Origin: Mucilaginibacter sp.
Lineage (GTDB): Bacteria > Bacteroidota > Bacteroidia > Sphingobacteriales > Sphingobacteriaceae
NCBI GenBank assembly: GCA_016763755.1
Contig: JAESTD010000339.1
Coordinates: 1 to 32,185, forward strand
Length of the DNA: 32,185 bases
Direction of reading: 5' to 3'
The notes beneath the pieces were generated by a model, which saw nothing but the letters and a program-made list of their open reading frames with translations, ran no database searches and was not told the origin of the DNA. Made by a program: the position numbers and the translations under genes. Of this stretch, positions 6,945 through 30,084 are shown piece after piece; within the stretch, counting starts at the first letter, position 1; the number at the start of each line of letters is the position of its first letter.

Positions 6945-6951
6945 GCCGGAC

Positions 6952-12220: not shown

Positions 12221-12240
12221 ATGAAAATTGATCTTCTACT

Positions 12241-13671
12241 TTAAGGAAATACAGGAAGTTTCGTGAATTGATCGGGTAGTGGTTTGGGTACATTAGGATT
12301 CGTATTGATCTCCACCTGTGGGTATATAAAACGTTGCGGTTTTTGCGTGCCGGTATTTAACGGTATAGGCAGCTGCACGACAGGAACTGCACTGGCAAGG
12401 CGGCGATAGTCATTAAAGGCCTCATACTGCATCAGGAAACAAATGTAACGTTGCGAAATGATCTCGTACAGCAAAGCTGCCTGCAGATCAGTTGTCTTGA
12501 TGTTATTTGCCAAACCTACCGGTCCGAAATCAGCAAGGGTATAAGCATCATACTTCCTGCCATCGCTGCCAAACCTCCCCCCATTAAACATACCATTGTT
12601 CAAGTTCGCTCTGATACTGTTTAAGGAGCTTAAAGCATCAGCCAATTGTCCAAGCCTGGCCTCCGCTTCTGCGAGGATCAATTGATTTTCATAATAGGTG
12701 ATCAATGGATGCGAGGCATTATTAACAAAGGCACCATCAACGGTATTACCATCAAGACTATTGGTTGCAGTGAGACCCCGCTTAAAGAAATAATTATACA
12801 AGGCGGTTTCGTCTGTTTTGGTGTTGGCAGAACCTATGCGCGATTGCATCAGCTTTGGCAGGTAAGCGCCGTCAAATCCGGCGTCTCCGATGCGCGACAC
12901 CGCGAAAAAATCGTAGTTCTGGTTGATGTCAACACCTATGGCTGTACCGTGAGGCATGAGCGCATCGGCTGCCGGTGATGCTATCCCCCGTTGGGCAAAT
13001 TGTATGGCCTGAGTGTAATGACCGGTGTGCAGGTATAAGCGTGCTTTTAAAGTATTGGCAGCCGCCAGCCATTTTTTAATGTCGCCCTTGTAAATGAAAT
13101 CCTTGGCAGGGTATGCCGAACCTGTTGAAGCAGATAGATTGGTAATTGCTTGATCGAGTGTGGTTTGCAGTGTGGTATATACATCCTGCTGCTTATCAAA
13201 TACCGGGGTAGGGAAGCGTGCTGCGTCAAAAGCCTGGCGGTAAGGTACGTCGCCGTATAAGGCGGTGGCTTTGGCGATAACCATTGCCTCAAGGACCTGG
13301 CCAATACCTTTTCCCCAGGCATTGCCGACCGAATCCGCTTTTGATTGCATTAACCTTGCCTGGCCGGCCACCGCGTATAAAGGGCTCCAGGAAAAATTTT
13401 GTGCTGAGACAATGTATTGCGCGTATCCCAAGTGCGCACGGGCTAGGCCATTGAGTTCGCCGGCCCACATAGAGGCTATGCGTACGTCGGTATCCTCGTG
13501 CAGTAAGCCTACACCCAACAGGGTACCGCCCATTAACGTCGGCAAGTCCACGTTGGTAACCGCGTTTGGGTTGGTGTTGATGTCGGGGTTTTCGAATATT
13601 TTTTTGCAGCTGCTGAGCAGGCCGACCGTAAATGCGGCAAATATTAGGATAACAGTTGTAAATTTCTTCAT
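12241..13671 (-). CDS. SusD/RagB-family outer-membrane lipoprotein (SusD-like, PF12771 type)
   Basis: A 476-residue surface lipoprotein partner of the upstream SusC. The signal peptide MKKFTTVILIFAAFTVGLLSS ends in a lipobox with Cys22, followed by KKIFENPDINTNPNAV, the typical start of the SusD-like PF12771 group. TPR-like helical segments are visible (KALGDVPY-like ATALYGDVPYRQAFD, WLAAANTLKARLYLHTG, ITYYENQLILAEAEARLGQ). The C-terminal RFIYPQVEINTNP is characteristic of the group. The ATG at 13671 is preferred; seven upstream codons from 13692 would disrupt the signal peptide. It lies 27 bp after susC and 20 bp before the permease. Ligand unknown. Confidence 0.92.
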   Translation of the reverse strand: MKKFTTVILIFAAFTVGLLSSCKKIFENPDINTNPNAVTNVDLPTLMGGTLLGVGLLHEDTDVRIASMWAGELNGLARAHLGYAQYIVSAQNFSWSPLYAVAGQARLMQSKADSVGNAWGKGIGQVLEAMVIAKATALYGDVPYRQAFDAARFPTPVFDKQQDVYTTLQTTLDQAITNLSASTGSAYPAKDFIYKGDIKKWLAAANTLKARLYLHTGHYTQAIQFAQRGIASPAADALMPHGTAIGVDINQNYDFFAVSRIGDAGFDGAYLPKLMQSRIGSANTKTDETALYNYFFKRGLTATNSLDGNTVDGAFVNNASHPLITYYENQLILAEAEARLGQLADALSSLNSIRANLNNGMFNGGRFGSDGRKYDAYTLADFGPVGLANNIKTTDLQAALLYEIISQRYICFLMQYEAFNDYRRLASAVPVVQLPIPLNTGTQKPQRFIYPQVEINTNPNVPKPLPDQFTKLPVFP

Positions 13672-13698
13672 GTTTATTTCAATGCAGATCAAAATGGA

Positions 13699-16600
13699 TT
13701 AATACCTGATTTGTAACGAGAAAAGGAACGAGCGGGTATTAGGGTTGTTGAACCAATCCTGCCCGCGGGACAAACCTGCCCCGGTGACGTTAGTCTCCGG
13801 ATCAACGCCGCTATATTTTGTCCACAGCACCAGGTTCCTTCCGGTAATGCTAAAGTCTACCGCAGCCAGGTGTGTCAAGTGTTGAAAGGCGGGCGAGTTC
13901 AACGTGTAGCTTAAGGTCACCTCGCGCAAACGCGTAGCGCTGCCGTCTTCCACAAACTGTTTGTATGACGCCGTATTGCTGGCCGAGCCACGTCCCTGCC
14001 ACCAGGCCTGGTTAATCGCCACGGGCCCGCCGCCGAAGTCGGTTATATAACCCTGGAACGAGGTGCCGGCCGGTATCAGGGCACCGGTGACATCCCGCAC
14101 ACCTCCTGCAGGTGAAACCGCCACCTTACCCTGATCACCATGTGTACCTTTACTGTACAGGGAGCCACGTGTTCCGTTAAATATGGAGTTGCCCGCAACG
14201 CGGCTGAATAGCACGTATAGCGATATCTTTTGATAGGATAAGGTGTTGCCCAAGCCGCCTTGCCACTTTGGATTGGGGTTGCCTACGACCTCGTTACGGA
14301 TACCGGGTTGTGGGAAGCCATTGCCATCCAGGATGTATTTGCCTGATCCGTCTTTTAGGAAATCGGTAGAATAGAAAACCCCGAACTGCTGACCGGGAAT
14401 GAGCGAAGCCAGCCCTAAAAATGCATCGGGCAAGGTATATACGGTAGCGCCGGCTAAAGAATTTACTTTGCTGCGGTTGGCAGAAAAGTTGGCTGATATA
14501 TTCCACCGGAAAGCATTCCGGCTGATCACATCTGCCCCGGCCTCAAGCTCAATACCTTTGTTCGATAACACGGCCGCGTTGGTGTTCCTTACGGTAAAAC
14601 CGGTTTCATTCGGCACATTAAGCGAGAGGATCACATCTTTGGTTCTATTGGTATAAACCGTTGCCGAAAAGGTTACCCTGCTTTTAAACATGCGCATATC
14701 GAGGCCCAGTTCTGTTTCCGTTTTACGCTCCGGCTTTAAATAATCGTTGCCTTGTACAAAGCTGCGGCTGTAGCCCCCGCCGTAAAGCGCACTGGCCGAT
14801 GATAGCCCGCGGGTAAAGGTATCGCCATATACGGCAGGGTTAAAAGCTGTAAAATTTTGATAAGGCTGCGGCTGGATACCCACTTGTCCCCAGGTCGCGC
14901 GGAACTTAGCGAAGTTAAGAAAGGATATCCGGCTAAAGGCTTTAAGTTTGGTGAGTTGCCAGGCCAGTGCCGCCGATGGAAAGAAGAAGCTGCTGTTTGT
15001 CTTGTTTCCAAAGGTAGATGCACTTTCGTTGCGACCGGTTAAAGTAAGGTAAAACATATCAAGCGCTTCTGCTTCTGTTTGCAAATAATAAGCATAAGTT
15101 CTGATGAGCGAGGTGGTATTGCCCGCAACCAGGTTTGAGTTAAGCGCATTGGTTAATATATCCGGGGCGGTAGGCACAATTAAGTTTGATATCGCGTCTG
15201 AACGTGTGCTGCGGCGCCTGTTATTGTAGTTAAAGCCGGCAAGTAATGATCCCTTAAACTTATCGCTCCAGCTTTTGTGAGCGCTTGCAAAAACATCGCT
15301 GTTAAACTGCTTTTCCATCAGCAGATTTTTGGATAGATAACCGTTTAAGAAAGTGGCCGAATTGCGCGCAAAACGCTCGGTGCGGTCATCTGTGTAGTTA
15401 TCAATACCCGTGCGGCCGGTGATGCTAAGCCAGTTGGTGGGTGTAACGTTTAATTCAAGCGTTCCGGTTATCCGGTCCACATCACTGCTGTTGCGGTTAT
15501 TATACAGGTTCCAAACAGGATTGGCATAAATGGTGCCGAGGTCTTTACCTAAGGGGTTACGGTAGGATACATGCGCATTCTGGAACATTTCACCGGTAAC
15601 ACTTGTGTAGGTACCTGTATAATAGCGGTTGTCAAAATCGGCAGGGGTACGCGTTGCACCGAGCATCAGGCCGTCCACATTGTCCCCTTCTTGGTTGCGC
15701 TGCGAACTGGTTTTTGAATAGCCGATATTGGCCGATCCCCGCAACCAGCTATTAAATTGTGTAGCGGCGTTAACGCGTGCGGTATTGCGCCCGTATTTAC
15801 TGAAAGCCTTTGCTATACCATCCTGGTTGAGATTTCCATAGCTCATTAAGAAACTTGATTTGCTGTCGCCGCCACTTAAGGTCAGGTTGTTTTCCCAAAA
15901 GTGCCCGGTCTGAAAAATGTCCTGATACCGACTATAGGTCTCGTTATCGTTTTTGCCGCCGTGCGGATTGGCCGCATTGCCCGCTTGGATGGCATAGCGC
16001 TGTGATCCGTCCTGAAAGGTAACATAACCCTGGTAACCCGCTTCACCGGGCGAAGTAATATAGGTATCGCCCCCACCGCTACGCGATGGTATAAAATCTC
16101 CGAAACTTAGTTTGTTACCCTGATTATAAAAACCACCCGTACCCTGACCGTATGTGGATTGCAAGGGGGGTAACTTATTGACGCGGTCAATAGAGAGGGT
16201 TGATTTATAGGTGATGTTTAATTTGCCATTTGTGTTTTTGCCGCGCTTGGTTTTAATAATGACAACGCCGTTTGCAGCACGCGTACCCCACAAGGCCGCA
16301 GCAGAAGCCCCCTTCAGCACCTCCATACTTTCGATGTCTTCAGGGTTGATATCATTAATGCGTGATTGCTGCACAATGCCATTCGCCGCTGCGGCGCCAA
16401 GATTATCATTCGAGTTGCTAACGGGCATGCCATCTACAATAAAAAGCGGTTGCGCATTACCATTGATGGTGTTTTGCCCGCGTACCTGGATATAGCCCCC
16501 CGAGCCGGGATCGCCTCCGTTCCGGGTTATCAGTACGCCGGAAAGCTTGCTGCTCATGCCTGTAAGCAAATTGGTCTCGCCGCTTTGAGCAACGTTTTTT

Positions 16601-16983
16601 CCTTTTACGGTTGAAACAGATGATGCAAATTTATCACGCTGGGTTTCAACGCCAATGGCATTGACAATTACCTCTTTTAATTGCCGGGTATCCGGCTTAA
16701 GCTGAACATTAATGATTTGTTGCTTGCCGACGCTTACTTCGGTTGCCTGCAAACCGATTTGGGAAAACACCAGCATCGCCTGGCTTGATGGAACGTTTAT
16801 TGAATATCCACCGGCGGCATCAGTAACAACACCGATTGTGGTTCCTTTCACATTAACGGTAACGCCGGGCAGTATCGCGCCGGTCTCATTTTCGCTAACC
16901 TTACCGCTGATCGTTATGCCTTGCGCAAAACTATTGAAAAATAAAAAATGGGCAACAATACCTAATAGTATAGTTTTGATCAT
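13699..16983 (-). CDS. SusC/RagA-family TonB-linked outer-membrane transporter
   Basis: A 1094-residue TonB-dependent transporter. A signal peptide (MIKTILLGIVAHFLFFNSFA) precedes a carboxypeptidase-regulatory-like domain (~22-105: ITISGKVSENETGAILPGVTVNVKG begins it), a plug with the SusC signature region (VRGQNTINGNAQPLFIVDGMP, ~167-187) and EVLKGASAAALWGTRAANGVVIIKTKRG-type sequence (~221-248), then a long beta-barrel ending LFSLQIRY with a terminal aromatic. There is no STN domain, so it should not signal through an anti-sigma factor. It is first in the operon with SusD and an MFS permease, and no glycoside hydrolase accompanies it, which fits uptake of a small ready-made ligand. Confidence 0.95.
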   Translation of the reverse strand: MIKTILLGIVAHFLFFNSFAQGITISGKVSENETGAILPGVTVNVKGTTIGVVTDAAGGYSINVPSSQAMLVFSQIGLQATEVSVGKQQIINVQLKPDTRQLKEVIVNAIGVETQRDKFASSVSTVKGKNVAQSGETNLLTGMSSKLSGVLITRNGGDPGSGGYIQVRGQNTINGNAQPLFIVDGMPVSNSNDNLGAAAANGIVQQSRINDINPEDIESMEVLKGASAAALWGTRAANGVVIIKTKRGKNTNGKLNITYKSTLSIDRVNKLPPLQSTYGQGTGGFYNQGNKLSFGDFIPSRSGGGDTYITSPGEAGYQGYVTFQDGSQRYAIQAGNAANPHGGKNDNETYSRYQDIFQTGHFWENNLTLSGGDSKSSFLMSYGNLNQDGIAKAFSKYGRNTARVNAATQFNSWLRGSANIGYSKTSSQRNQEGDNVDGLMLGATRTPADFDNRYYTGTYTSVTGEMFQNAHVSYRNPLGKDLGTIYANPVWNLYNNRNSSDVDRITGTLELNVTPTNWLSITGRTGIDNYTDDRTERFARNSATFLNGYLSKNLLMEKQFNSDVFASAHKSWSDKFKGSLLAGFNYNNRRRSTRSDAISNLIVPTAPDILTNALNSNLVAGNTTSLIRTYAYYLQTEAEALDMFYLTLTGRNESASTFGNKTNSSFFFPSAALAWQLTKLKAFSRISFLNFAKFRATWGQVGIQPQPYQNFTAFNPAVYGDTFTRGLSSASALYGGGYSRSFVQGNDYLKPERKTETELGLDMRMFKSRVTFSATVYTNRTKDVILSLNVPNETGFTVRNTNAAVLSNKGIELEAGADVISRNAFRWNISANFSANRSKVNSLAGATVYTLPDAFLGLASLIPGQQFGVFYSTDFLKDGSGKYILDGNGFPQPGIRNEVVGNPNPKWQGGLGNTLSYQKISLYVLFSRVAGNSIFNGTRGSLYSKGTHGDQGKVAVSPAGGVRDVTGALIPAGTSFQGYITDFGGGPVAINQAWWQGRGSASNTASYKQFVEDGSATRLREVTLSYTLNSPAFQHLTHLAAVDFSITGRNLVLWTKYSGVDPETNVTGAGLSRGQDWFNNPNTRSFLFSLQIRY

Positions 16984-17928: not shown

Positions 17929-20466
17929 ATGTCACTTCGTTCGAAACTCGTTTTAATCATTTTGCTCTCGTTTACTTTTTGCGCCTTGCAAGGGCGTGGG
18001 CAGGGCCTGCAGTTCAATTCTAACGACAGCCTCATGAGCAGGCGTACGTCTTATACCGTATTCAGGGAAGCTCCGACCTTTCATGATAGCTTTCAAATGA
18101 CGTTTGATCTGTCCCTTTGGGATAACGATCATTTGGGCTATGTTTTTAACATAACCGATACAAAAAATAACTCCTATAGCTTAACCTACATCTTTAATCA
18201 CAACGGCTCGCCAACGCTGAATTTTAATATTGATAGCAAAAGCAATAAAATAGAAATACCCCTCAATATTGATCTGCTTAAGCGCCGGAAGTGGATGAGG
18301 GTTAAGGTAATTGTTGATCTTTTAAAAAACAGCGTAGAAATCAACATAAACAGCAAATCTTACCGCGCAATTGGTTTCGGGTTTGATAAAAGTATTACAC
18401 CTAAAATAAGTTTCGGGCTAAATCCGCACTACTCGGATGTGCCTAAAATGGCTATCAAAGATCTTACTGTAAGTAGTCACGAAGATAGCTATCATTTTCC
18501 GCTTGATGAATGGAAGGGAAACATTGTACATGCTGATGATGGCGAAACCTTGGGTTTTGTGGATCATCCCAAGTGGCTTATCAATGGGTCGTTCTTTTGG
18601 GCTTTAAAGTTTAAGCGGAATTTTAAAGAAGTGGCAGGGCTCAATTTTAATGATGCCACGCAACAATTACTGATGTTCAAAAGTGATTCTGTAGTTCGCT
18701 ACAATTTACAAACAGAAGGCATAGATGCAAAACCGTACGCCAACGCCAACCCGATAAAGCTGTTCCTGGGTAAAAGTTTTTTAAATGCGGATCAGGGGAA
18801 GCTCTACGTATACGAAGTGCAGCCGCGGGATACTGCCAATAGTATTGTCTCGCTGGATTTAAATACACTCCTATGGGAACGGATTGGTAAAGCCTCTACA
18901 AAGGATCAACGGCATCACCACAATATCTTCCAAGATCATACGGGCCGTAATTTTTATCTTTTTGGAGGTTACGGTTCTTTCTCTTACCACAATGATTTTC
19001 TTGCATATAACAAAGCGACTGATACATGGGAAGCCGTAAGTTTTAAAGGCGACACCATTTTACCACGATTTTTTGCTGGCAGCAGCAAGGCTGACCATAA
19101 AAACGAGGTTTATATTTTTGGCGGGTATGGAAATCAATCCGGCAACCAGATCGTCGGGGGGCGGCATTTTTATGACCTGTACAGGGTAGATCTTAACAGC
19201 AGAACCATCAAAAAGATTTGGGAGATCAAACCTCCGGGAGAGTCCTTTGTACCTGCCAACAATCTTATCGTTTCAAAAGATGGCAAGTATTTTTACGCCC
19301 TTTGCTATCCGCATGAGAAACCTAAGACAGCACTGCGTTTATATAAGTTTTCTATCAAAGATGGGTCGTACGAAGTCGTAAGTGGTATTTTACCGGTAAC
19401 ATCGGAGCGTATTGAGAGCGATTTTAATTTGTTCTACGATGCTAAGCAGGACGAGTTTGTTTGCACTGCCCAGGAATTTACCTCGCCCGACCAGTCTTCG
19501 ATCCGCATTTATACCCTAACCGCCCCGCCAATAGAACAGAGCGTTTACCTAGCATCTTTAAAGCCCGCAAACAGTGGCATGAAAACCCGCTATATATACG
19601 TTATCGTCGGTGCCCTGTTATTGCTGACGGTTTTTTCAGCTATCTATCTGGTCAGAATAAGGAGTTATCACAACGTACCCCTAAAAAGCGAAGATGACAG
19701 TCGACCGTTTTATAAAACTAATAACATTGAAACCGAGAAAAGACCTGATAGTGTCTACCTATTCGGTGAGTTTACGGCATATGATAAATCCGGAAAAGAT
19801 ATTACGTATTTATTTAGTCCTAAAATAAAACAACTTTTTATCTTACTGCTACTCAACAGTAAGGATGGACAAGGTGTTGTCCCAAAAAAGATATCCGCCA
19901 CACTTTGGCCTGATAAGGAAATAACCAAAACCAAAAATATTCGCGGTGTAACCATCAATCACCTGCGCAGCATTATTGCAGATATCAATGGCCTGGAGCT
20001 AACATTTGTAAATGATACCTACCGCTTTTTATTCAGCAACGGCTTCCAGTGCGACTATTTCAAATTATCAGCTGAGCTTGGTCGTCTGCAATGCGGCGAA
20101 ATATCAGCAGCGCAGTTAGTTGAAGAACAGTTTGGGTTATTTGCCCGGGGGGCATTATTGCGTGATGTTCCTGAGCACTGGCTGGATGATTTTAAACAAA
20201 ACCATGAAGAGCTGTTGCTCAGCATTATCCTGCCGGAGGTAAAGCGTATTTACGAAACCGGTAAGCACAAACATGCTCTTGAACTAGCCCGCTTGACCTT
20301 AGCTATGGATCCCTTTAATGACGTCGCTATCAAATACAAATTGAAGGCGCTTCGCAGAATAAAGGGCGTAGAGTATGCCCGCAAAACTTACGACGATTTT
20401 GCTGCTGATTACGAGCGATCATTAGGCAGCCCATATGCCATTCCGTTTGAGAAGATCTGCAAATGA
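17929..20466 (+). CDS. membrane-tethered SARP-like regulator with LamG- and Kelch-like periplasmic sensor
   Basis: An 845-residue protein that appears to sense a periplasmic cue and bind DNA directly. In order: signal peptide (1-25); LamG/concanavalin-like beta domain (~45-185); beta-propeller with Kelch-like motifs FYLFGGYG (342-349) and VYIFGGYG (394-401) spanning ~220-535; one transmembrane helix (555-577, YIYVIVGALLLLTVFSAIYL); linker; winged helix (~605-705) with KIKQLFILLLLNSKDGQGV, ATLWPDKEITKTKNIRGVTI and NHLRSIIADINGLEL; then a helical BTAD-like region (~705-840) with ALELARLTLAMDPFNDVAIK and a YDDFAADYERSLG ending. This output half resembles SARP/AfsR activators, but sits at the C-terminus after a membrane helix. 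There is no kinase or receiver. It directly precedes the GH76 PUL and is the likely activator of that locus. Function is inferred, not known. Confidence 0.82.
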   Translation: MSLRSKLVLIILLSFTFCALQGRGQGLQFNSNDSLMSRRTSYTVFREAPTFHDSFQMTFDLSLWDNDHLGYVFNITDTKNNSYSLTYIFNHNGSPTLNFNIDSKSNKIEIPLNIDLLKRRKWMRVKVIVDLLKNSVEININSKSYRAIGFGFDKSITPKISFGLNPHYSDVPKMAIKDLTVSSHEDSYHFPLDEWKGNIVHADDGETLGFVDHPKWLINGSFFWALKFKRNFKEVAGLNFNDATQQLLMFKSDSVVRYNLQTEGIDAKPYANANPIKLFLGKSFLNADQGKLYVYEVQPRDTANSIVSLDLNTLLWERIGKASTKDQRHHHNIFQDHTGRNFYLFGGYGSFSYHNDFLAYNKATDTWEAVSFKGDTILPRFFAGSSKADHKNEVYIFGGYGNQSGNQIVGGRHFYDLYRVDLNSRTIKKIWEIKPPGESFVPANNLIVSKDGKYFYALCYPHEKPKTALRLYKFSIKDGSYEVVSGILPVTSERIESDFNLFYDAKQDEFVCTAQEFTSPDQSSIRIYTLTAPPIEQSVYLASLKPANSGMKTRYIYVIVGALLLLTVFSAIYLVRIRSYHNVPLKSEDDSRPFYKTNNIETEKRPDSVYLFGEFTAYDKSGKDITYLFSPKIKQLFILLLLNSKDGQGVVPKKISATLWPDKEITKTKNIRGVTINHLRSIIADINGLELTFVNDTYRFLFSNGFQCDYFKLSAELGRLQCGEISAAQLVEEQFGLFARGALLRDVPEHWLDDFKQNHEELLLSIILPEVKRIYETGKHKHALELARLTLAMDPFNDVAIKYKLKALRRIKGVEYARKTYDDFAADYERSLGSPYAIPFEKICK

Positions 20467-20490: not shown

Positions 20491-20515
20491 TCACGGTTAA
20501 AAATATCACGGTTAA
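20491..20515. promoter_or_regulatory. tandem TCACGGTTAA repeats upstream of the PUL susC
   Basis: TCACGGTTAA occurs at 20491-20500 and 20506-20515 (15-bp period). GGTTAA is the reverse complement of TTAACC, so these may be opposite-strand copies of the box in the adjacent heptamer array. They lie ~60-80 bp upstream of the -7 element. Confidence 0.5.
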
Positions 20516-20531
20516 CGAAAAATATAACGTC

Positions 20532-20562
20532 TTAACCCGAAAGTTAACCCATCTGTTAATCC
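20532..20562 (+). promoter_or_regulatory. three TTAACCC-type heptamers at 12-bp period (candidate activator site)
   Basis: TTAACCC at 20532-20538, TTAACCC at 20544-20550 and TTAATCC at 20556-20562 are direct repeats with 5-bp spacers. The last ends 9 bp before the -7 element TATACTTG. Actinobacterial SARPs bind heptamer repeats at an 11-bp period ending about 8 bp before the -10 box, so the layout is closely analogous. The likely binder is the regulator encoded just upstream. Confidence 0.65.
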
Positions 20563-20571
20563 ATCAAAGTT

Positions 20572-20579
20572 TATACTTG
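20572..20579 (+). promoter_or_regulatory. -7 promoter element of the PUL susC operon
   Basis: TATACTTG differs from TAnnTTTG at one position. The place where a -33 TTTG would sit (~20548-20552) reads CCCAT, inside the heptamer array, so the promoter appears activator-dependent. A further CGGTTAA (20585-20591) lies at the predicted transcription start. The leader to the ATG at 20658 would be ~70 nt. Confidence 0.5.
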
Positions 20580-20657
20580 TTCACCGGTTAACGAACTGCA
20601 GGCCGTAACCAGGGCTTGTCTGCCGGTATTTATAAACCAATTTTAACCAATTATTCT

Positions 20658-23600
20658 ATGGATGAAAACTCTACCAACTATGGTGTGCGCCATTGCGCGC
20701 GCTATGTTGCAAAGATGAGGGGGAGTATGGCTTTTTGCTTGCTATCGTTCTGGTTTTTGCTGCTGTGCATGAATGTAAGTGCACAAGTCACGCCGGTTAC
20801 GGGTGTAGTGTCGGACCAGTCGGGTGTTCTGCCCGGTGTGTCTGTTGCGGTTAAAGGAACTACAACAGGTGCTGTTACGGATATTAACGGCAAATATGTC
20901 CTCAATGTAGCCAGTGGTCAAACACTTATATTCAGCTTTCTGGGTTATGCTACCCAAGAGATTGTTTATGGTGGCCAAAGGCAATTGAATGTAAAGCTTG
21001 CAACAAATGCCTCAACCTTAAACGAAGTTGTTGTTGTAGGTTATGGTACGCAACGCAAAGCTACGCTTACCGGGTCGGTAGCCAGTGTCACCGGAAGCGA
21101 GATCACCACAACTAAAAATGAGAACGTCTTAAACTCTTTAACCGGTAAGGTTGCGGGTTTAAGGGTCACCCAAAATTCGGCCGAACCCGGCTCATTTGAT
21201 AACTCTTTCAGTATACGTGGTTTCGGCGACCCACTTGTGGTGATCGACGGGGTTCCCCGCGATAACATTACCCGCCTGGATCCGAATGACATCGAAAGTG
21301 TATCGGTACTTAAAGATGCATCTGCCGCTATCTACGGCGTGCGTGCGGCAAACGGCGTGATATTGGTAACCACCAAACGCGGCAAAAAAGGAACGCTTGA
21401 ACTTAGTTATTCCGGCACCTACGGCTTACAGGTACCATCTGGCTTGCCTAAACCGGTTGGCGCGTTAGATTTTATGACGCTCGTTAACGAACAGCTATTG
21501 CACAACGTTAACGGCGGCCAGGTGAAATATTCCCAGACAGATTTTGAGGCCTTCCGAAACGGTACCCGCGCCAGTACAGATTGGTACACCCCGGTCATCA
21601 AAAACAGTGTACCGCAATCGCAGCACAATTTAAATGCCATGGGTGGCAGTGAAAATACCACTTACTTTGTTAGCATGGGTATCACCCAGCAGGATGGTTT
21701 TTTGCGCAGTAACGATCTTAATTACAAACGTTACAACCTGCGCTCTAACTTAACTACCCGCATTACCAAAAATTTAAGTGTCGATGTAAACATCAACGGA
21801 ACACTTGATGAGAAAAACCAACCATACCAGGATGCTTGGTGGATCATCCGCTCGTTTTGGCGCCAAGTACCGACGCAGTCTGTTTATGCCAACAACAACC
21901 CGGCTTATCTGAACATTGGCGAGGTGGATGGCAGTAATCCGGTGGCCCTTGCAGATGCAGATGTGAACGGTTACCGTAAGTATACTAACCGCTGGCTGCA
22001 ATCGCAGGTATCTGCAACGTGGCAAATCCCTTACCTGAAGGGCTTAAGCGCTAAGGGTTTATTTGCTTACGATTACTATCATTCTAACAATAAGCTTTAC
22101 CAAAAAACTTATAATCAGTACACCTACGACGCCAACAGCGATACATACAGGCCTACAGCTTACCAGTCGCCAGCCACCATTCGTAATGAGTCGTTTGAGC
22201 GCCCGGGCACGCTTATGCAGTTATCGTTGAATTACGACCATACCTTTGGCGATCACAGCTTTACCGGTTTGTTGTTGTATGAAGAGAATCACCGCCAGCA
22301 GGACAACTTCTACGCACAGCGTGAACTATCCCTGCCTGTCGACCAGATATTTGCCGGTAATGCACAAAACCAGATAGGTTCTGCTAATACCGGTGACATC
22401 TACGACTATGTGAACAAATCGGTAGTGGGTCGTATCAATTACAACTACAAATCCAAATACCTGGCAGAGGTCAGCTTCCGCCAGGATGGCTCCTCGCGTT
22501 TTTCACCGACAAAACGATGGGGTTTTTTCCCGGCAGCCTCTGTCGGATGGCGGATAACCCAGGAAGATTTCTGGAAGAACAGTGGCCTTTCATTTATAAA
22601 TGACCTGAAACTAAGGGCGGCTTACGGTAAAGTGGGTGATGATTCTGCTTTGGCCTACCAGTTTCTTACCGGCTACCGTTATCCCGCAAATGGCTCCAAC
22701 AACCAACTGCCGCCAGGCTCCGTGTTTGACGGCACATTTGTAAACGCCGTTGAAAACCTGGGTATAGCTAACCAAAACCTTACTTGGTTCAATGCCGAAA
22801 CCTACAATATCGGAGTAGATGCCGAAGCGTGGAATGGATTGATAGGCGCTACCTTCAACGTGTTCAGACGCGATCGGTCAGGCTTGTTAGGGACGCAGAT
22901 CTTAAATTTGCCAAGTGTGGTAGGTGCAACCCTGCCGCAGGAAAACCTGAACAGCGACAGAACACAAGGTTTTGAGATAGAGCTGAGTCACCGCAACCAT
23001 ATCGGCGCATTCAATTATAACATTCGCGGTAACGTTGCTTTTGCGCGCACGAAGAACCGCACCGTCGTACAAGCGCGTTTCGGAAATTCACAGCTCAACT
23101 GGCATAACAACCAGAATAATCGCTGGAACAATATTTATTGGGGCTATGGCGCGGGAGGTCGCTATACCAACTACCAGGACATCCTGAATAACAATCAGTT
23201 CGTATCACGCAACGCGGTGGTAGGTGATTACATTTACCAGGATTGGAACGGCGACGGACAGATCACTGGCGATGACGTACACCCAATTGCTTACAACAGC
23301 GCTCCGCTCACAAACTTCGGTTTAACGATTGGCGGCTCTTATAAAGGGTTCGATTTTAACATGGTCTGGCAAGGTGCTACCGGTGTTACGGTATCCTACC
23401 AGGAGCAATTAAATATCCCATTATGGGGAGGGGGCAGTGCATTAGCAATGTTTATGGACCGGTATCACCCTACAGACCCTAATGCGGATCCGTACAATCC
23501 TAATACCATATGGACCCCTGGTAGTTATGCTTTAACAGGCACCACTGCCGATGTTAATTCGATGTTTAACATCCAGGATGCCTCGTATGTGAGGTTAAAA

Positions 23601-23801
23601 TCTGCTGAAATAGGCTACAGCCTATCGCCCGGTGCGATCAGAAAGATCGGCATCAAAGGCGCGCGGATATTTGTCAACGGTTATAACGTGCTGACGTTTA
23701 CCGGTGTCAAGTACCTTGATCCGGAGCACCCATCATCAACCTATGGTTACCTGTACCCGCTCAATAAGACCTTTTCATTAGGTGTCAATGTTAAGCTTTA
23801 A
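20658..23801 (+). CDS. SusC/RagA-family TonB-linked outer-membrane transporter
   Basis: A ~1047-residue TonB-dependent glycan transporter. From the ATG at 20658 there is a 43-residue extended signal peptide (hydrophobic core MAFCLLSFWFLLLCMNVSAQ); ATGs at 20715 and 20727 are alternatives that leave only the core. Next come a carboxypeptidase-regulatory-like domain (~45-120: VTGVVSDQSGVLPGVSVAVKG, then FSFLGYATQE), the VVVGYGTQRKATLTGSV TonB-box region, the plug (FSIRGFGDPLVVIDGVPRD, SVSVLKDASAAIYGVRAANG) and a long beta-barrel ending SLGVNVKL. No STN domain. It is the first structural gene of the PUL; SusD follows after 11 bp. Confidence 0.95.
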   Translation: MDENSTNYGVRHCARYVAKMRGSMAFCLLSFWFLLLCMNVSAQVTPVTGVVSDQSGVLPGVSVAVKGTTTGAVTDINGKYVLNVASGQTLIFSFLGYATQEIVYGGQRQLNVKLATNASTLNEVVVVGYGTQRKATLTGSVASVTGSEITTTKNENVLNSLTGKVAGLRVTQNSAEPGSFDNSFSIRGFGDPLVVIDGVPRDNITRLDPNDIESVSVLKDASAAIYGVRAANGVILVTTKRGKKGTLELSYSGTYGLQVPSGLPKPVGALDFMTLVNEQLLHNVNGGQVKYSQTDFEAFRNGTRASTDWYTPVIKNSVPQSQHNLNAMGGSENTTYFVSMGITQQDGFLRSNDLNYKRYNLRSNLTTRITKNLSVDVNINGTLDEKNQPYQDAWWIIRSFWRQVPTQSVYANNNPAYLNIGEVDGSNPVALADADVNGYRKYTNRWLQSQVSATWQIPYLKGLSAKGLFAYDYYHSNNKLYQKTYNQYTYDANSDTYRPTAYQSPATIRNESFERPGTLMQLSLNYDHTFGDHSFTGLLLYEENHRQQDNFYAQRELSLPVDQIFAGNAQNQIGSANTGDIYDYVNKSVVGRINYNYKSKYLAEVSFRQDGSSRFSPTKRWGFFPAASVGWRITQEDFWKNSGLSFINDLKLRAAYGKVGDDSALAYQFLTGYRYPANGSNNQLPPGSVFDGTFVNAVENLGIANQNLTWFNAETYNIGVDAEAWNGLIGATFNVFRRDRSGLLGTQILNLPSVVGATLPQENLNSDRTQGFEIELSHRNHIGAFNYNIRGNVAFARTKNRTVVQARFGNSQLNWHNNQNNRWNNIYWGYGAGGRYTNYQDILNNNQFVSRNAVVGDYIYQDWNGDGQITGDDVHPIAYNSAPLTNFGLTIGGSYKGFDFNMVWQGATGVTVSYQEQLNIPLWGGGSALAMFMDRYHPTDPNADPYNPNTIWTPGSYALTGTTADVNSMFNIQDASYVRLKSAEIGYSLSPGAIRKIGIKGARIFVNGYNVLTFTGVKYLDPEHPSSTYGYLYPLNKTFSLGVNVKL

Positions 23802-23812
23802 ATTTTATCAAC

Positions 23813-25720
23813 ATGAAAAAAACGATATACACTGCACTTTGCTTTTTAATATGCTGGACAACGGCCTGTAAAAAGCTTGATGTACCGCCAATCAATATCA
23901 TACAGGATAAAGACGTATTAAGCAACGCTGGTGGCGTGCAAGCTTACATGGCCCGTCTTTACGCACAATTACCTATTGAGGATTTCAGATATTCGCCTGA
24001 GCGTGGCTTAAATTTCTTCTGGATCATCAGCCCGTTCCCTGCGGTTACGGGCGAGGCGCTTAGCCGCGACCAGCGTGGGGCCATGCAGGAAAACGTCAAC
24101 GAATCGCCGTGGGCGGATTGCTACCGGCTGGTGCGGGATGTAGATTACTTTTTAGAGAACATAGACCAGTACAGCAGTGACTTTAGTGAAGCGCAAGTCA
24201 ACGGTTGGAAAGGGGAGGCTCGCTTTATACGTGCCGCAACTTACTTTGCCCTGGTTAAACGTTATGGTGGTGTTCCTTTGGTCGATAAGGTTTTACAATA
24301 CCCATCCAACGATCTGGAAGGGTTGAATATGGCGCGGGCATCAGAAGAAGCTTCCTACGATTTCATCGCTGCCGACCTGGATTACGCCTACCAAAATATG
24401 AGCGAAACCAACCAGGCGGGTCGTGCAAATAAATATGCTGCTGCCGGCTTCAAATCAAGGGTAATGTTATTTGCAGGTTCTATCGCCAAATACAACAATA
24501 TTACTTTAATCGATGGGGGCGCCCGTATATGTGGTATCCCGTCATCAAAGGCAGTTACGTATTTTAAAGCCGCTTGCGATGCCGCCAAACTGCTTGATGG
24601 AAAATACAGCCTTTATAAGAAAACATGGGCAGCAGGCGACAAAGAAGCCCAATACCAAAACTTTGTTAACTTGTTTTTTGATGCCAGCAGTCCTGAAAAT
24701 ATTTTTGTAAAACAATATCACTACCCTGAATCGGTTCATGGTTATGATGCTTACAACGTTCCGCGTCAATTGATGGGTGCAAATGGTTATTCCGCAGAGG
24801 TTAATCCCACGCTGGATTATGTTGAACTACTTGATGGCCTGCCTAAAAACAGCGACGGCACATTAAAAACCACCACTGCCGGTAAGTATGATCTGTACAC
24901 CAACACTATGGACCTGTTTGCCAACGCCGAGCCGCGTTTACGGGCCACCGTTGTTTTACCCGGCGACCAGCTGAAAGGGCAAAGTATCGAGATCCGTCGT
25001 GGTATCTATACCGGAAGCTCTGCGGGCGGTATAACTCCGCTATTACCGGCCGGTTCAACAGCCAATTACCCAACGGCAGATATTGTCCAATCATCAAACG
25101 CCAACCAGACCCCTTACAAACTACCCGATGGTACAACCATGAATCCTGCAGGTCTAAGCGGGATATTCACAGGCGATGGTACCTGCGCTATTTCAGGCTT
25201 TTCTATACGCAAGTGGTTGGTGCCGGATAAACCTACATCAGAAGTTTTGGAGAACCGCTCTGACCAGACCTGGATAGAAATGCGTTACGCCGAAGTGCTT
25301 TTGAATTATGCCGAAGCTGCTTGGGAACTAAACAGCCTGGGGCAAAACGGCACTTACTTATCCGATGCGATGACCGCTATTAACCAGATACGTGAACGTG
25401 CAGGCGCAACATCGCTTACGGGCGCGGGCGATCTGCTAAGCGTTGACGCTATCAGGAAAGAAAGAAGGAAAGAGCTTGGTTTTGAAAACAAAATATGGTG
25501 GGATATGCGCAGATGGAGGACTGCCGATAAAGAGCAAAATGCAACATTGTACCGTGTGCTGATGCCGTTTTACGCTGCCAATGATAAGAAATATTTCTTT
25601 GATGCCCGTACTGATGAGCGCAATGTAAGATACACTTTCGATGTGCGCTGGTACTATGAGCAGATCCCTAACGGAGAGATACAAAAAAGCCAAAAGTTAG
25701 TTCAAAACCCAGGTTATTAA
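23813..25720 (+). CDS. SusD/RagB-family glycan-binding lipoprotein
   Basis: A 635-residue outer-membrane lipoprotein with a lipobox Cys at residue 19 (MKKTIYTALCFLICWTTAC), followed by KKLDVPPINIIQDKDVLSNA. Helical SusD_RagB segments are visible: ARFIRAATYFALVKRYGGVPLVDK, ANKYAAAGFKSRVMLFAGS and EMRYAEVLLNYAEAAWELN, with the C-terminal region ending in RKERRKELGFENKIWWDMRRWRTADK-type sequence (near residues 543-569). It should cap the SusC channel and hold oligosaccharide. It is longer than many SusD proteins (500-600). DUF3823 lipoprotein follows after 10 bp. Confidence 0.95.
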   Translation: MKKTIYTALCFLICWTTACKKLDVPPINIIQDKDVLSNAGGVQAYMARLYAQLPIEDFRYSPERGLNFFWIISPFPAVTGEALSRDQRGAMQENVNESPWADCYRLVRDVDYFLENIDQYSSDFSEAQVNGWKGEARFIRAATYFALVKRYGGVPLVDKVLQYPSNDLEGLNMARASEEASYDFIAADLDYAYQNMSETNQAGRANKYAAAGFKSRVMLFAGSIAKYNNITLIDGGARICGIPSSKAVTYFKAACDAAKLLDGKYSLYKKTWAAGDKEAQYQNFVNLFFDASSPENIFVKQYHYPESVHGYDAYNVPRQLMGANGYSAEVNPTLDYVELLDGLPKNSDGTLKTTTAGKYDLYTNTMDLFANAEPRLRATVVLPGDQLKGQSIEIRRGIYTGSSAGGITPLLPAGSTANYPTADIVQSSNANQTPYKLPDGTTMNPAGLSGIFTGDGTCAISGFSIRKWLVPDKPTSEVLENRSDQTWIEMRYAEVLLNYAEAAWELNSLGQNGTYLSDAMTAINQIRERAGATSLTGAGDLLSVDAIRKERRKELGFENKIWWDMRRWRTADKEQNATLYRVLMPFYAANDKKYFFDARTDERNVRYTFDVRWYYEQIPNGEIQKSQKLVQNPGY

Positions 25721-25730
25721 TTCAAAGTTC

Positions 25731-26486
25731 ATGAAAAATAGAATATATACCATAGCTGCATGCGCTATAGCTTTATTAGCTGCATCGTGTAGCAAATTAG
25801 ATAATTACGAGGATCCTAAGGAGACCTTAAAGGGAAGCGTGATAGATGCCGGTACGGGTAAAACCGTACAAACCGAACAAGGCAGCGGTACACGTATTAA
25901 ACTGCTTGAGATAAGCTGGAGCGATAACCCTACGCCATTTTATATTGCCTCGATGCAAGATGGTACATACAACTATACCAAGCTTTTTAAAGGCACTAAC
26001 AAAATAAGTGCGGAGGGGCCATTTGTGCCTTTGGTACAAACGGACAATACCGGCGCTACGGTTGTTGATAAAAGCCAAACCGTTGAAATAAATGGTACGA
26101 AGACCGTAGACTTTCAGGTTGAGCCTTTTCTGCGTATAGAGTGGGTGGGCGAGCCAACCGTAAACTCAGACGGAACCATTACGGCTAGCTATAAGATAAC
26201 CCGTGGTACTAACGATCCTAACTTTCAGCAAAATGTAACTGATCTGCGGTTATTTGTCAACTCAAATAAATACGTTGGTAACAATAACTTTGATGATCGT
26301 TATTCTACCCAGGTAAACTTCAATGGATCAGAGGCTAACGCAACTCTAAACCAAACGGTTACCATCACTACAAAAGGTGGCCCGCTGCCTAAAACACGTC
26401 AATATTTCATCCGAGTAGGTGCCCGTATCGATTATGGCCTTAAATACTACAACTACTCTGATGTAAAAACAGTAACCGTACCTTAA
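25731..26486 (+). CDS. DUF3823 domain-containing lipoprotein (SusE-position)
   Basis: A 251-residue lipoprotein with lipobox Cys20 (CAIALLAASCSKLDNYEDP). The N-terminal half (LKGSVIDAGTGKTVQTEQGSGTRIKLLE, FYIASMQDGTYNYTKLFKGTN) matches DUF3823, a carboxypeptidase-regulatory-like beta-sandwich. The C-terminal half (~130-250) looks like a second beta domain (WVGEPTVNSDGTITASYKIT, QYFIRVGARIDYGLKYYNYS). Such proteins usually follow susC/susD in Bacteroidota PULs and are thought to be surface glycan-binding. It lies 10 bp after SusD and 63 bp before the putative hydrolase. Confidence 0.9.
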   Translation: MKNRIYTIAACAIALLAASCSKLDNYEDPKETLKGSVIDAGTGKTVQTEQGSGTRIKLLEISWSDNPTPFYIASMQDGTYNYTKLFKGTNKISAEGPFVPLVQTDNTGATVVDKSQTVEINGTKTVDFQVEPFLRIEWVGEPTVNSDGTITASYKITRGTNDPNFQQNVTDLRLFVNSNKYVGNNNFDDRYSTQVNFNGSEANATLNQTVTITTKGGPLPKTRQYFIRVGARIDYGLKYYNYSDVKTVTVP

Positions 26487-26549
26487 TCTGCCTGTTAATA
26501 CCGGCCATGCGCGGTGCGGCGCAAGACTGGTTTACAACTATCTTTACCT

Positions 26550-28730
26550 ATGAAAAAACTACTATTTACCTGTTCGTTGGCGGCGATGGTCGTTGGTGTT
26601 TCGGCACAAACAAAAAAGTCGGTTGCTGCTAAACAGAAAACAGCTTTTCAAACCAGCAGTCCCTGGATGCCGGAAATTGATGTGCGGTCTGATATCGCCA
26701 TTGTTTACTGCGTTAACGACAGAAAAGGAATGACCTTTGAGCAACGCGTACAATCGTGGCGAGACCATGGCTACCAAACACAATTTATGACCGGTATTGC
26801 TTGGGGCAGTTACGAAGATTACTTTTTGGGCAAGTGGGATGGCATCAATCATCTCGGCGTTGGCCAGGTGACACAAAAGGGTGATACCATTTTCCACGGT
26901 AAAAATATGCCTTACGTGGTACCTGTAAAATCATTCATCGAGTATATGAAAACCGCCGTGGTTAAACGCGTGATAGATGCAGGCATTACCACTATATTTT
27001 TAGAAGAGCCCGAGTTCTGGGCTCGTGCAGGTTATAGCGCACCTTTTAAAGAAGAATGGCAAAAGTACTATGGTTTCCCATGGAAGCCACAGCATGAATC
27101 GGCGGAGAATACTTATCTGTCAAGTAAGTTGAAATACCATTTGTATTATGAGGCTCTAAAGGTTGTATCTAACTATGCAAAAGCTTATGGTAAAAGTAAG
27201 GGCAAAGCTATCAAAGTATTTATTGCCACACACTCGTTGGTCAATTACTCGTCGTGGCAAATTGTTAGTCCTGAGGCAAGTTTAGCATCGCTGCCAGGTA
27301 TTGATGGTTACATCGCCCAGGTTTGGACGGGTACCTCCCGCGAACCTACTTACTTTAACGGCGAGAAAAAAGAACGGGTGTTTGAGAATGCTTTTCTGGA
27401 GTACGGCTCTATGGTATCTATGACAGCACCAACCGGTCGTAAAATGTATTTTCTAACAGACCCGATAGAAGATTGGCCTCGCGATTGGGCTGATTACAAA
27501 AAGAACTATCAGGCAACTTTCACCGCTAAACTCTTGTATCCAATGGTCGCCGATTACGAGGTGATGCCATGGCCGGAACGCATTTACACCCATCCGTACA
27601 AAGTTGCCAACAGCGATGAGAAAGTACTGATACCGCAGTATTACTCCACGCAAATGCAGATAATGGTAAATGCGCTCAACAGTATGCCACTATCAGCCAA
27701 CAAGGTAACCGGCGTAAACGGCATTGGTGTGCTCATGAGCAATTCACTCATGTTTCAGCGCTTCCCTACACATAACGGTTTCGAGGATCCGCAATTTTCA
27801 AACTTCTATGGGCAAACACTTCCGCTCCTTAAAAGGGGGGTGCCGGTACAAACCGTGCACATGGAAAACCTGAACTATGCTGCTACATTGAAGAATATCA
27901 AAGTATTAGTAGTTAGCTACTCGAACATGAAACCTAACGCACCCGATGTGCACGAAGCATTGGCCAAATGGGTCAAACAGGGTGGCATATTGATCTACAC
28001 CGGAAAGGATGATGACCCTTACCAATCGGTAATGGAATGGTGGGATACTAAAGGCAACGGTTTTAAATCGCCTTCAGAACATTTGTTTAAACTTTTGGGC
28101 ATTACACCGGCTAATGGTAAAGAAAAACATAAGGTAGGGAGAGGTGCCGTTTATGTTCTGCGCCAAAACCCTAAAGAGTATGCCATGCAAAGCAACGGTG
28201 ACAGCCACTATGTAGAAACAATCAAACAAGCTTATGAAGCAGATGCCAAAGCCGGTAAGCTGGAATTTAAAAATAACCTTTACCTGGAGCGTGGCGCCTA
28301 CGACGTGGTTTCGGTGTTGGATGAAAATGCGGACGCCAAACCTTATACCATTAAAGGGCCCGTGATAGATCTGTTCGATCCGCAACTGCCTGTATTGGTA
28401 CAAAAGGTGATCAACCCGGGTGAGCAATCATTGCTGTATAATGTAAAGCGTGTAGCCGTTAAAAGTAAACCACAGGTTTTAGCCGCTGCCGCCCGTGCCT
28501 ATGATGAAAAGGTGCAGGGAAATACCTATTCATTCGTTGTAAAAAGTCCCGTTAAAACGCTGAACAGCATGCGGGTGCTTTTGCCTGCCAAGCCAAAGTC
28601 TACTAAAGTTACAGATGCTTCAGGGCAGCAAATTATGGATGTAAAAACATCGTGGGACGAATCATCAAAAACCGTTTACCTGGGCTTTGCGAACAGCCCG
28701 GACGGAATAAAAGTGACTTTGAGTTGGTAA
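26550..28730 (+). CDS. putative GH42-like glycoside hydrolase, family not assigned
   Basis: A 726-residue secreted protein with a type I signal peptide (MKKLLFTCSLAAMVVGVSAQ). The N-terminal ~350 residues look like a TIM barrel: the strand ITTIFLEEPEFWARAGY (E152/E153/E155) could carry the acid/base, and YEVMPWPERIYTHPY (E337, E343) or the LTDPIEDWPRDW segment could carry the nucleophile. A Rossmann-like domain follows (NIKVLVVSYSNMKPNAPDV with KWVKQGGILIYTGKDDDPY), like the class I glutaminase-like trimerisation domain of GH42 enzymes, then a beta-rich C-terminus (~520-726). The architecture resembles GH42, but I cannot match it to a known CAZy family. The start at 26550 gives a clean signal peptide; an upstream in-frame codon at 26514 would not. 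Confidence 0.6.
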   Translation: MKKLLFTCSLAAMVVGVSAQTKKSVAAKQKTAFQTSSPWMPEIDVRSDIAIVYCVNDRKGMTFEQRVQSWRDHGYQTQFMTGIAWGSYEDYFLGKWDGINHLGVGQVTQKGDTIFHGKNMPYVVPVKSFIEYMKTAVVKRVIDAGITTIFLEEPEFWARAGYSAPFKEEWQKYYGFPWKPQHESAENTYLSSKLKYHLYYEALKVVSNYAKAYGKSKGKAIKVFIATHSLVNYSSWQIVSPEASLASLPGIDGYIAQVWTGTSREPTYFNGEKKERVFENAFLEYGSMVSMTAPTGRKMYFLTDPIEDWPRDWADYKKNYQATFTAKLLYPMVADYEVMPWPERIYTHPYKVANSDEKVLIPQYYSTQMQIMVNALNSMPLSANKVTGVNGIGVLMSNSLMFQRFPTHNGFEDPQFSNFYGQTLPLLKRGVPVQTVHMENLNYAATLKNIKVLVVSYSNMKPNAPDVHEALAKWVKQGGILIYTGKDDDPYQSVMEWWDTKGNGFKSPSEHLFKLLGITPANGKEKHKVGRGAVYVLRQNPKEYAMQSNGDSHYVETIKQAYEADAKAGKLEFKNNLYLERGAYDVVSVLDENADAKPYTIKGPVIDLFDPQLPVLVQKVINPGEQSLLYNVKRVAVKSKPQVLAAAARAYDEKVQGNTYSFVVKSPVKTLNSMRVLLPAKPKSTKVTDASGQQIMDVKTSWDESSKTVYLGFANSPDGIKVTLSW

Positions 28731-28953: not shown

Positions 28954-30084
28954 ATGAAAAAAACATACATGGTATTACTTACCGGCTTTTTGATAGCAGC
29001 GGCGAGCTGCAGCAAAGGCAATGAAGGTGTAAAGACGGAAACAACCAAACCAGGGAGTAGCACAACAACAGACAGTCCTGCATTTACCACCACAGATGCA
29101 ACAAAGGCGTATACGGCTTTTAACCGTTATTACTACAACCCAACAAAAAAACTGTATTACGCCAACACGTTGCAAACCAATTTGGGTGCCATTTGGACAC
29201 AGGCTATTTATTGGGATATGGCCATGAACGTTTATGAGCGTACAAAAGACCAATCGCAGATGGCGATGATCGATGATATATACCAGGGCGGCTATAACGA
29301 ATACGACGGTTATAACTGGGACAATACCACTGCCTGGTTTATTTATGATGATATGATGTGGTGGGTAATGGCCCTTGCGCGTGCAAATCAATTAACGGGC
29401 AACGCGACCTACCTGCAAAAGGCGATCGCCGGGTTTGACAGGGTGTGGAATGGCTCATACGACCCGGTTGATGGTGGTATGTTCTGGGACTTTAACCACA
29501 GCGGTAAAAACGCATGTATAAATTTCCCAACGGCGATCGCTGCCATGCGTTTGTATAAGTTAACCGGTAACAAAATCTATTACGACAGAGCCTTGTCTGT
29601 TTACCAGTGGGCAAAAGCTAACCTCGTCAATTCAGAAGGCCGTGTCGCCGATCATAAAATAGGTAACAATGCTCCAGGGTATGAAGATTATACGTACAAC
29701 CAGGGTACTGCTATTGGTGCGGCGATAGCTTTGTATAATGAAACTAAGGATGCTGCCTATCTTAACGATGCAAAGTTGATCGCCGATTATACCAAAAATA
29801 AAATGTGCACCAACAACATACTGCCTGCCGAAGGTGACTTCAACGAACAAGGTGTCTTAAAGGCGATCTTCGCGCAATATATTATGCAACTCATCAAAGA
29901 TGCCGGGCAAACACAGTATTTGAGCTGGATACAGCAGAATGTTGATGCCGGGTGGAACAACCGCGATAAACAGCGTGACCTTTGCTGGCGCAATTATGCC
30001 CTGCCGGCACCGACAGGTGTCATGCAATCCTATGAAAGTAGCAGTATTGTAACGTTTATGCAACTGTGTCCGCCTGACAAATAG
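28954..30084 (+). CDS. GH76 family glycoside hydrolase (endo-alpha-1,6-mannanase-like) lipoprotein
   Basis: A 376-residue lipoprotein with lipobox Cys19 (MKKTYMVLLTGFLIAAASC) and a ~30-residue Thr/Ser-rich linker. The catalytic (alpha/alpha)6 domain carries the GH76 signature around IYDDMMWWVMALARAN, with the Asp132-Asp133 pair expected to be nucleophile and acid/base. Other family-like segments are YWDMAMNVY, NWDNTTAWF, FDRVWNGSYDPVDGGMFWDF, INFPTAIAAMRLYK and YTYNQGTAIGAAIALY. Family members hydrolyse alpha-1,6-mannan backbones, for example of fungal cell-wall mannan. It lies 223 bp after the GH42-like gene and may have its own promoter, though none was clear. It gives the best clue to the PUL's substrate. 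Confidence 0.92.
   Translation: MKKTYMVLLTGFLIAAASCSKGNEGVKTETTKPGSSTTTDSPAFTTTDATKAYTAFNRYYYNPTKKLYYANTLQTNLGAIWTQAIYWDMAMNVYERTKDQSQMAMIDDIYQGGYNEYDGYNWDNTTAWFIYDDMMWWVMALARANQLTGNATYLQKAIAGFDRVWNGSYDPVDGGMFWDFNHSGKNACINFPTAIAAMRLYKLTGNKIYYDRALSVYQWAKANLVNSEGRVADHKIGNNAPGYEDYTYNQGTAIGAAIALYNETKDAAYLNDAKLIADYTKNKMCTNNILPAEGDFNEQGVLKAIFAQYIMQLIKDAGQTQYLSWIQQNVDAGWNNRDKQRDLCWRNYALPAPTGVMQSYESSSIVTFMQLCPPDK

Follow-up and report, generated by a model that had tools for sequence, protein, structure and literature searches.

A protein encoded in Mucilaginibacter directly upstream of a glycan-uptake operon is, quite probably, a one-component transmembrane transcription regulator of that operon. 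The best reading of the sequence is that it represents a kinase-free, one-component transmembrane PUL activator with a SARP-type output, and a candidate operator in front of the operon, which tracks the regulator across genomes, provides new evidence for this. A sequence-only reading of the window (the whole stretch of DNA that was analyzed, 32,185 nucleotides) had proposed that the protein could pass a glycan signal across the membrane. The architecture and the predicted control of the neighboring PUL are now well supported, the latter by the operator, which that reading did not contain, while glycan sensing in the periplasm, binding of the site by the protein, and activation as the effect are putative.

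Architecture of the regulator

The regulator gene and the parts of its product are as follows.

17929..20466, + strand: regulator gene, 845 aa (open ORF, Pfam, homologue alignment)
17929..18000, + strand: signal-peptide-like segment, residues 1-24 (hydropathy, alignment)
18004..18576, + strand: LamG-like stretch, residues 26-216, a weak assignment (family profiles; relative L100)
18679..19380, + strand: Kelch propeller, residues 251-484, the span of the Pfam models (Pfam)
19585..19662, + strand: transmembrane helix, approximately residues 553-578 (hydropathy)
19744..20064, + strand: likely winged-helix region, approximately residues 606-712 (profile alignment, Foldseek)
20107..20430, + strand: likely BTAD (TPR-type) domain, residues 727-834 (Pfam protein and genome scans, model)

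The protein is the only match to its own sequence in its genome, which is 87% complete. Hydropathy analysis reveals a signal-like N-terminus and one transmembrane helix at about residues 553-578, followed by the positively charged stretch RIR; the expected topology therefore has the Kelch part in the periplasm and the C-terminus in the cytoplasm. No kinase, receiver, sigma, HisKA, HATPase, or AraC domain is present among the Pfam matches of the regulator up to E 1, and the combination of a predicted DNA-binding domain and at least one transmembrane helix in a single chain without a kinase places it among the transmembrane one-component regulators. The union of a signal-like N-terminus, a Kelch-like propeller, a transmembrane helix, and a C-terminal output in one protein, as originally noticed, is confirmed by Pfam and hydropathy. 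The least certain parts of the architecture are the LamG stretch and the winged helix.

The Kelch assignment is secure. The Pfam model PF24681 matches residues 300-484 (E 4e-17, 62.7 bits against a cut-off of 50), four single-Kelch Pfam models also score above their cut-offs, and PF24681 is matched by all 31 aligned family members, the regulator included. The NCBIfam matches to the regulator were limited to mutarotase- or epimerase-like Kelch models, far below cut-off, and the Kelch part was not read as an enzyme, given the output domain fused to it. Of the two sensor domains proposed from the sequence, the propeller emerged above cut-off, while the LamG-like domain is retained as a weakly LamG-like stretch that has no Pfam match in the regulator itself. 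Among the 31 members, Laminin_G_3 was matched in one (5e-4) and Laminin_G_2 in four (best 2e-3), and a search of the N-terminal profile against PDB sequences returned one match, at E 0.75. A relative from another family of the class, L100, contains two Laminin_G_3 stretches (151.7 bits in all), against which hhalign gave 13.5 and 0.9, with shuffles reaching up to 2.3. The L100/L221 relative has a homologous output domain and, by eye, a transmembrane helix, and shows no Kelch match at E <= 0.1. As LamG rather than Kelch is here joined to the homologous output, the output module is not tied to a single type of sensor, and these sensors may have LamG as their common element.

The output is likely, though not proven, to consist of a winged helix followed by a BTAD domain. 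Residues 727-834 match BTAD with 19.9 bits in the protein scan (cut-off 22.1) and with 23.8 bits in the genome scan, in which this is the sole BTAD match of the genome at E <= 0.001; six of the 31 family members match BTAD at E <= 1. The winged helix has no Pfam match in the regulator. An output profile built from 27 C-terminal regions was aligned by hhalign with L116, in which BTAD scores 48.5 bits, and the alignment extended over 217 columns across winged helix and BTAD (probability 84, E 7e-6; 50 shuffles gave 2.0 at best and three TPR-bearing proteins 1.3). At this level of likelihood, with BTAD near its cut-off, the regulator displays the winged helix directly before BTAD that is found in SARPs. 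The structure model of the output has a mean pLDDT of 54 and is confident in the TPR half only, with the winged-helix part below 50. In Foldseek searches with this model AfsR ranked first and second (E 0.05 and 0.11), a third AfsR chain ranked 23, and none of the 887 matches reached E <= 0.001. The output-domain profile found no SARP among PDB sequences, where the rows other than TPR and designed helical proteins were at chance level, and VIA-align aligned the TPR half only, to generic TPR rows, with AfsR absent from its 50 rows. A full-length model from two sequences had a pLDDT of 30.6. The proposal that residues 605-840 fold as a winged helix plus BTAD resembling AfsR is thus favored by the hhalign probability and by the top rank of AfsR, and is weakened by the Foldseek E values and the mean pLDDT.

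Across the class PF03704 was matched in 55 of 247 genomes, a figure excluded as a SARP census since many of the matches look like TPR cross-matches, a judgment made from frame sizes and the longest ORF at 12 PF03704 loci. In several cases the match fell in an ORF other than the longest, and further true SARPs may therefore hide among these loci; L116, the C-terminal half of which is a clear winged helix plus BTAD, was the sole clear case seen.

Distribution and gene neighborhood

Homologues were found in 19 of 60 genomes, all of them Mucilaginibacter, the same genus; the M. achroorhodeus orthologue is 86% identical to the regulator. They fall into group A, approximately 43-100% identical to the regulator, and group B, paralogues with approximately 25% identity. 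At the scale of the family Sphingobacteriaceae, where the search scored up to three candidates in each genome, matches were obtained in 72 of 251 genomes and at least 67 carry a homologue, after G092, G107, G110, G118, and G127 were dropped (short, four with Kelch only). The class search, which scored up to two candidates per genome, matched 19 of 395 genomes, of which at least five were counted: G000, G129, G553, and G619 with full-length proteins and G473 with the output domain. The uncounted remainder comprised a 52-aa fragment (G374) and 13 Kelch-only matches. In-frame stops lie inside the regulator-homologue matches at G619:C70, G264:C22, and G233:C1.

In the window, the regulator gene stands ahead of an operon with the following genes.

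20658..23801, + strand: susC (Pfam; the start is more likely ATG 20658 than the mechanical TTG 20616)
23813..25720, + strand: susD (Pfam)
25731..26486, + strand: DUF3823 protein (Pfam)
26514..28730, + strand: ORF738, conserved, 738 aa as called, start uncertain (no Pfam family above cut-off)
28954..30084, + strand: GH76 protein (Pfam)

The census thus places the architecture mainly in this genus and family, with a PUL gene directly 3' of the regulator in 13 of the 17 group-A loci, the window included; the gene in question is susC or ORF738, except in L047, where GH92 stands first and susCD next. In L037-L040, the remaining four, the regulator lies apart from the PUL. Group-B regulators adjoin GH92, GH99 (above cut-off in one of three), GH3, and susCD genes, and L053 has nucleoside-hydrolase-like and rhamnosidase genes nearby. 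With GH76 in the operon and GH92 and GH99 as neighbors, our best guess for the theme of these loci is alpha-mannoside degradation, from which L053 differs.

In most group-A loci no protein of the operon is better conserved than ORF738, with identities of approximately 75-85%; elsewhere its identity falls to 53-60%. It matches no Pfam or NCBIfam family above cut-off, with only a weak hint of DUF4350, and it is possibly an undescribed glycoside hydrolase family. In G000:C126 (L214) a second copy, 85% identical, lies on a 6-kb contig with no susC or susD in view. The window also contains a second susC/SusD-like_2/MFS set on the minus strand (10880-16983), 945 bp from the regulator gene, in which no heptad site of the kind described below was found at up to two mismatches, as well as the genes of a two-component pair at 2458-4382 and five successive glycosyltransferase genes at 5841-10883.

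ORF738 is present in 21 of 37 genomes of the genus, and five of these genomes (G001, G016, G019, G025, and G036) lack the regulator. In G001 and G036 genes for FecR and an ECF sigma factor stand directly before the ORF738 operon, the susC and susD products of which are 58% and 65% identical in G001 and 30% and 24% in G036. Of the regulator module and the FecR/ECF-sigma pair, one thus seems to have replaced the other, clearly in G001 and less so in G036. In G553 a group-B regulator and a FecR/ECF-sigma pair are located side by side, and hence the two modules are not exclusive.

A candidate operator that accompanies the regulator

The intergenic region between the regulator and susC contains three elements.

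20510..20516, + strand: upstream half-site GGTTAAC (sequence inspection)
20532..20562, + strand: candidate operator of three heptads, 20532-20538, 20544-20550, and 20556-20562, with a 12-bp period (pattern search)
20572..20579, + strand: putative -7 box of the TAnnTTTG type, TATACTTG, 9 bp after the third heptad (sequence inspection)

The repeats, which were first noticed by reading the gaps between regulator and PUL, have the form TTAACCC-N5-TTAACCC-N5-TTAATCC in the window. An exact TTAACCC-N5-TTAACCC is found between regulator and PUL in 13 of 17 loci, the same 13 in which a PUL adjoins, and it lies 63-328 b behind the regulator stop codon, or 896 b in L036. The culturable species M. achroorhodeus is among those that carry it. 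When periods of 7 to 22 were compared at one mismatch, 12 gave 15 matches and every other period 0 to 2. An 11-bp period was also tried for group A and gave no match in the window or its genome, and the period was taken as 12. Every one of 26 distinct operators, a set from which the duplicate L251 and two GH76 sites, L184 and L243, were excluded, displays TAnnHTTG at 8 or 9 bp past the third heptad, and this box was outside the search pattern; conservation of the heptads themselves is inflated, since they were the search pattern. TAnnTTTG is the consensus of the sigma-A -7 box as described for a flavobacterium (PMC9723704). Given the position of that box at -12 to -5 (PMC9723704), susC transcription would be expected to begin near 20584. 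SARP sites are described as heptads with 4-15 nt spacers that overlap the -35 element (PMC10972967), and the predicted site likewise has heptad repeats with spacers in this range at a putative promoter. The likeness lies in design, not in sequence.

The pattern TTAACCC-N5-TTAACCC-N5-TTAA was searched in 37 whole genomes of the genus. The exact three-part site occurs in one copy in each of the 16 genomes with a group-A regulator and in none of the 21 without (some genomes of both sets are incomplete); the latter set includes the five in which ORF738 is present without the regulator. The pattern had been defined with 12 of the 16, and the other four constitute a true prediction: in these the regulator is away from the PUL, and susC-susD-DUF3823-ORF738, located elsewhere in the genome, is preceded by the site at a distance of 103-156 bp. 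A reversed-pattern control gave one match with up to one mismatch in the 37 genomes. In hold-out genomes, for which the prediction was written first, the site was exact in eight of nine positives and had one mismatch in the ninth; without G269, which is the strain of L002, the clean count is seven of eight exact and one with one mismatch. Among the 19 hold-out negatives none had an exact site and three had a one-mismatch match, while the reversed control matched in two at up to one mismatch. In G266, left open beforehand, an exact site was found behind a group-A regulator (48%). In these ten genomes the site precedes susC, in G201 with an unscanned 781-aa gene between them, and G280 provides a fifth unlinked case, with the regulator away from site and susC. 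Fisher tests gave 8e-11 (16/16 versus 0/21) and 3e-6 (8/9 versus 0/19), values that ignore kinship and the G269 overlap and are a guide only; the genomes are related, and the counts are not independent events.

In nine genomes of other genera no exact site was found, and G142 had a one-mismatch match. G619 carries a 34% group-A homologue beside ORF738, DUF3823, and susD homologues and has no site even at one mismatch, which marks a limit of the regulator-site rule. Of 27 group-A regulators examined for a triple TTAA within 700 b downstream, 20 have one at period 12; a period of 10 was found in two cases and of 18 in one, and the seven that lack the period-12 triple comprise G619, the five unlinked regulators, and L036, the site of which is at 896 b.

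Seven extra one-mismatch sites were present among the 37 genomes, six of them no farther than 150 bp from where a GH76 gene begins; that in G006 does not adjoin GH76. G280 also has a one-mismatch site near a GH76 gene start. GH76-side sites were recorded in six genomes at 97-144 bp from the gene start in reverse orientation (L181, L182, L183, L185, L186, and L243), and such sites point away from the GH76 gene in all but G026. Further one-mismatch sites occur in G073, G216, G272, and G142, and a second one in G237.

The paralogues provide an independent check on the pairing of family and predicted operator. Of 37 distinct group-B regulators, with same-regulator loci counted once and L221, the LamG relative, included, 19 have a triple TTAA at period 11 within 700 b downstream, and among the other periods from 8 to 24 there was one case, at 23. 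The remaining 18 have no triple repeat within 700 b downstream; for four of these, such a repeat stands at another place in the locus. A scan of 20 group-B loci (368,915 bases) revealed 23 period-11 sites in 14 loci, all of the sites outside mechanical ORFs of at least 100 aa, as compared with two sites at period 12 and none at 8-10 or 13-16; raw counts double each site because TTAA is its own reverse complement. A strict 7-mer triple search of these loci found 11-bp triples in L057 and L066 only, the others having emerged in alignment. By eye, CAAWTTTG stands exactly 8 bp after the third heptad in nine of the 19 group-B cases, the majority of the nine having a gene context in common.

A model for signaling and its alternatives

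In the proposed mechanism, the periplasmic part would bind a glycan or glycan fragment, for which an alpha-mannoside is the best guess from the GH76, GH92, and GH99 neighbors. The ligand would bring together or reorient approximately three cytoplasmic winged helices, several copies of which would bind side by side to the heptads over the -33 region. The bound output might then recruit RNA polymerase as SARPs do, and thereby switch on susCD, ORF738, and GH76, acting either at the membrane or after being cut loose. The latter variant, in which regulated proteolysis frees the cytoplasmic part as a soluble SARP, is conceivable but distinctly the less probable form of the model. The linker of varying length that the homologue alignment shows between the transmembrane helix and the winged helix would suit it, and regulated proteolysis of a membrane activator is known for TcpP; however, no sequence feature demands release, and no protease family was found among the 20 window ORFs scanned with Pfam.

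Alternatively, the heptads could serve another transcription factor, the Kelch protein being merely inherited with the PUL. PUL genes are often inherited as a block, the distant homologue in G619 stands beside related genes without a site, and the window itself encodes a two-component system approximately 13 kb away. We nevertheless regard this explanation as improbable, because site and regulator go together even when unlinked, the five genomes that have ORF738 without the regulator also lack the site, and the paralogues have a repeat that differs from it but is built alike, which would be expected of a site read by the family itself. We give equally little credence to a repressor in the membrane that would occupy the -33 region until glycan relieves it. 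The last repeat is 8 or 9 bp from the -7 box, and a protein bound there could exclude polymerase, but in two relatives the slot of the regulator holds the gene for an ECF sigma, an activating factor, and SARPs usually activate from heptads that overlap the -35 element (PMC10972967).

Activation by the regulator itself thus remains the preferred explanation. With somewhat less assurance than for control of the adjacent operon, we consider it likely that these proteins form a further class of PUL signaling, in which an envelope Kelch/LamG sensor is joined through a transmembrane helix to a SARP-type activator that reads heptads of its own period (12 or 11 bp), is able to replace a FecR/ECF-sigma pair, is tied to alpha-mannosides, and occurs mainly in Mucilaginibacter and its family.

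Relation to known regulators

Published descriptions of PUL control invoke hybrid two-component systems (HTCS), regulators of the SusR kind, and pairs of ECF sigma and anti-sigma factors (PMC11697453). According to PMC3878776, SusR sits in the membrane, has its sensor in the periplasm and its DNA-binding domain in the cytoplasm, and acts on starch-utilization operons. By this description it resembles the regulator in uniting a membrane sensor and a cytoplasmic DNA-binding part in one protein, but the motifs predicted for SusR come as two sites separated by 67 or 77 bp (PMC3878776). The "kinase-free" label of the sequence-only reading is therefore correct as far as Pfam domains go, and the property is not new, given the SusR precedent (PMC3878776). 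HTCS likewise carry sensor and DNA-binding part in one membrane protein and have predicted direct-repeat operators, with an average distance of 21 bp (PMC3878776); by Pfam the regulator has no histidine kinase, receiver, or AraC domain and falls outside this class. FecR/ECF-sigma pairs can occupy the same position, directly before the ORF738 operon in G001 and G036, but consist of two proteins with a sigma-type output and have no Pfam domain in common with the regulator.

In CadC and ToxR the cytoplasmic winged helix is N-terminal. The regulator instead has a signal-like N-terminus and a C-terminal output and is not of this type, and the contrast originally drawn, that its sensor is N-terminal, holds. 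All are one-component, membrane-bound, and DNA-binding or predicted to be so (PMC10269533). Transmembrane one-component regulators are widespread, as surveyed in PMC10269533, the main text of which does not contain the words BTAD or winged helix. Membrane-bound single-protein PUL regulators (SusR and HTCS; PMC3878776) and transmembrane one-component regulators (PMC10269533) are thus already known. No description of a Kelch/LamG-TM-SARP architecture was found in titles and abstracts of open-licence PMC papers, and as far as these searches show, this architecture, the mannoside-PUL link, and the operators are new. A separate control route through one protein, with its operator predicted, would make it possible to infer regulons from sequence in this family, and a compact sensor-activator with a matching promoter offers a bench model for transmembrane one-component signaling.

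Small SARPs are soluble proteins with an N-terminal winged helix. The regulator does not share this plan: as the sequence-only reading stated and as Pfam and hydropathy bear out, its output is C-terminal, behind a transmembrane helix and an envelope part, and its likely targets are glycan-uptake genes. Like AfsR, DnrI, ActII-ORF4, and PimR, it likely has a winged helix followed by BTAD, and like theirs its putative sites are heptameric direct repeats near a promoter, with three heptads in several SARPs as described in PMC10972967. The period is 12 bp in group A as opposed to the classical 11, which is that of the paralogues. With this regulator, a promoter geometry of the SARP type, associated with actinobacterial antibiotic genes, would extend to glycan foraging in the Bacteroidota.
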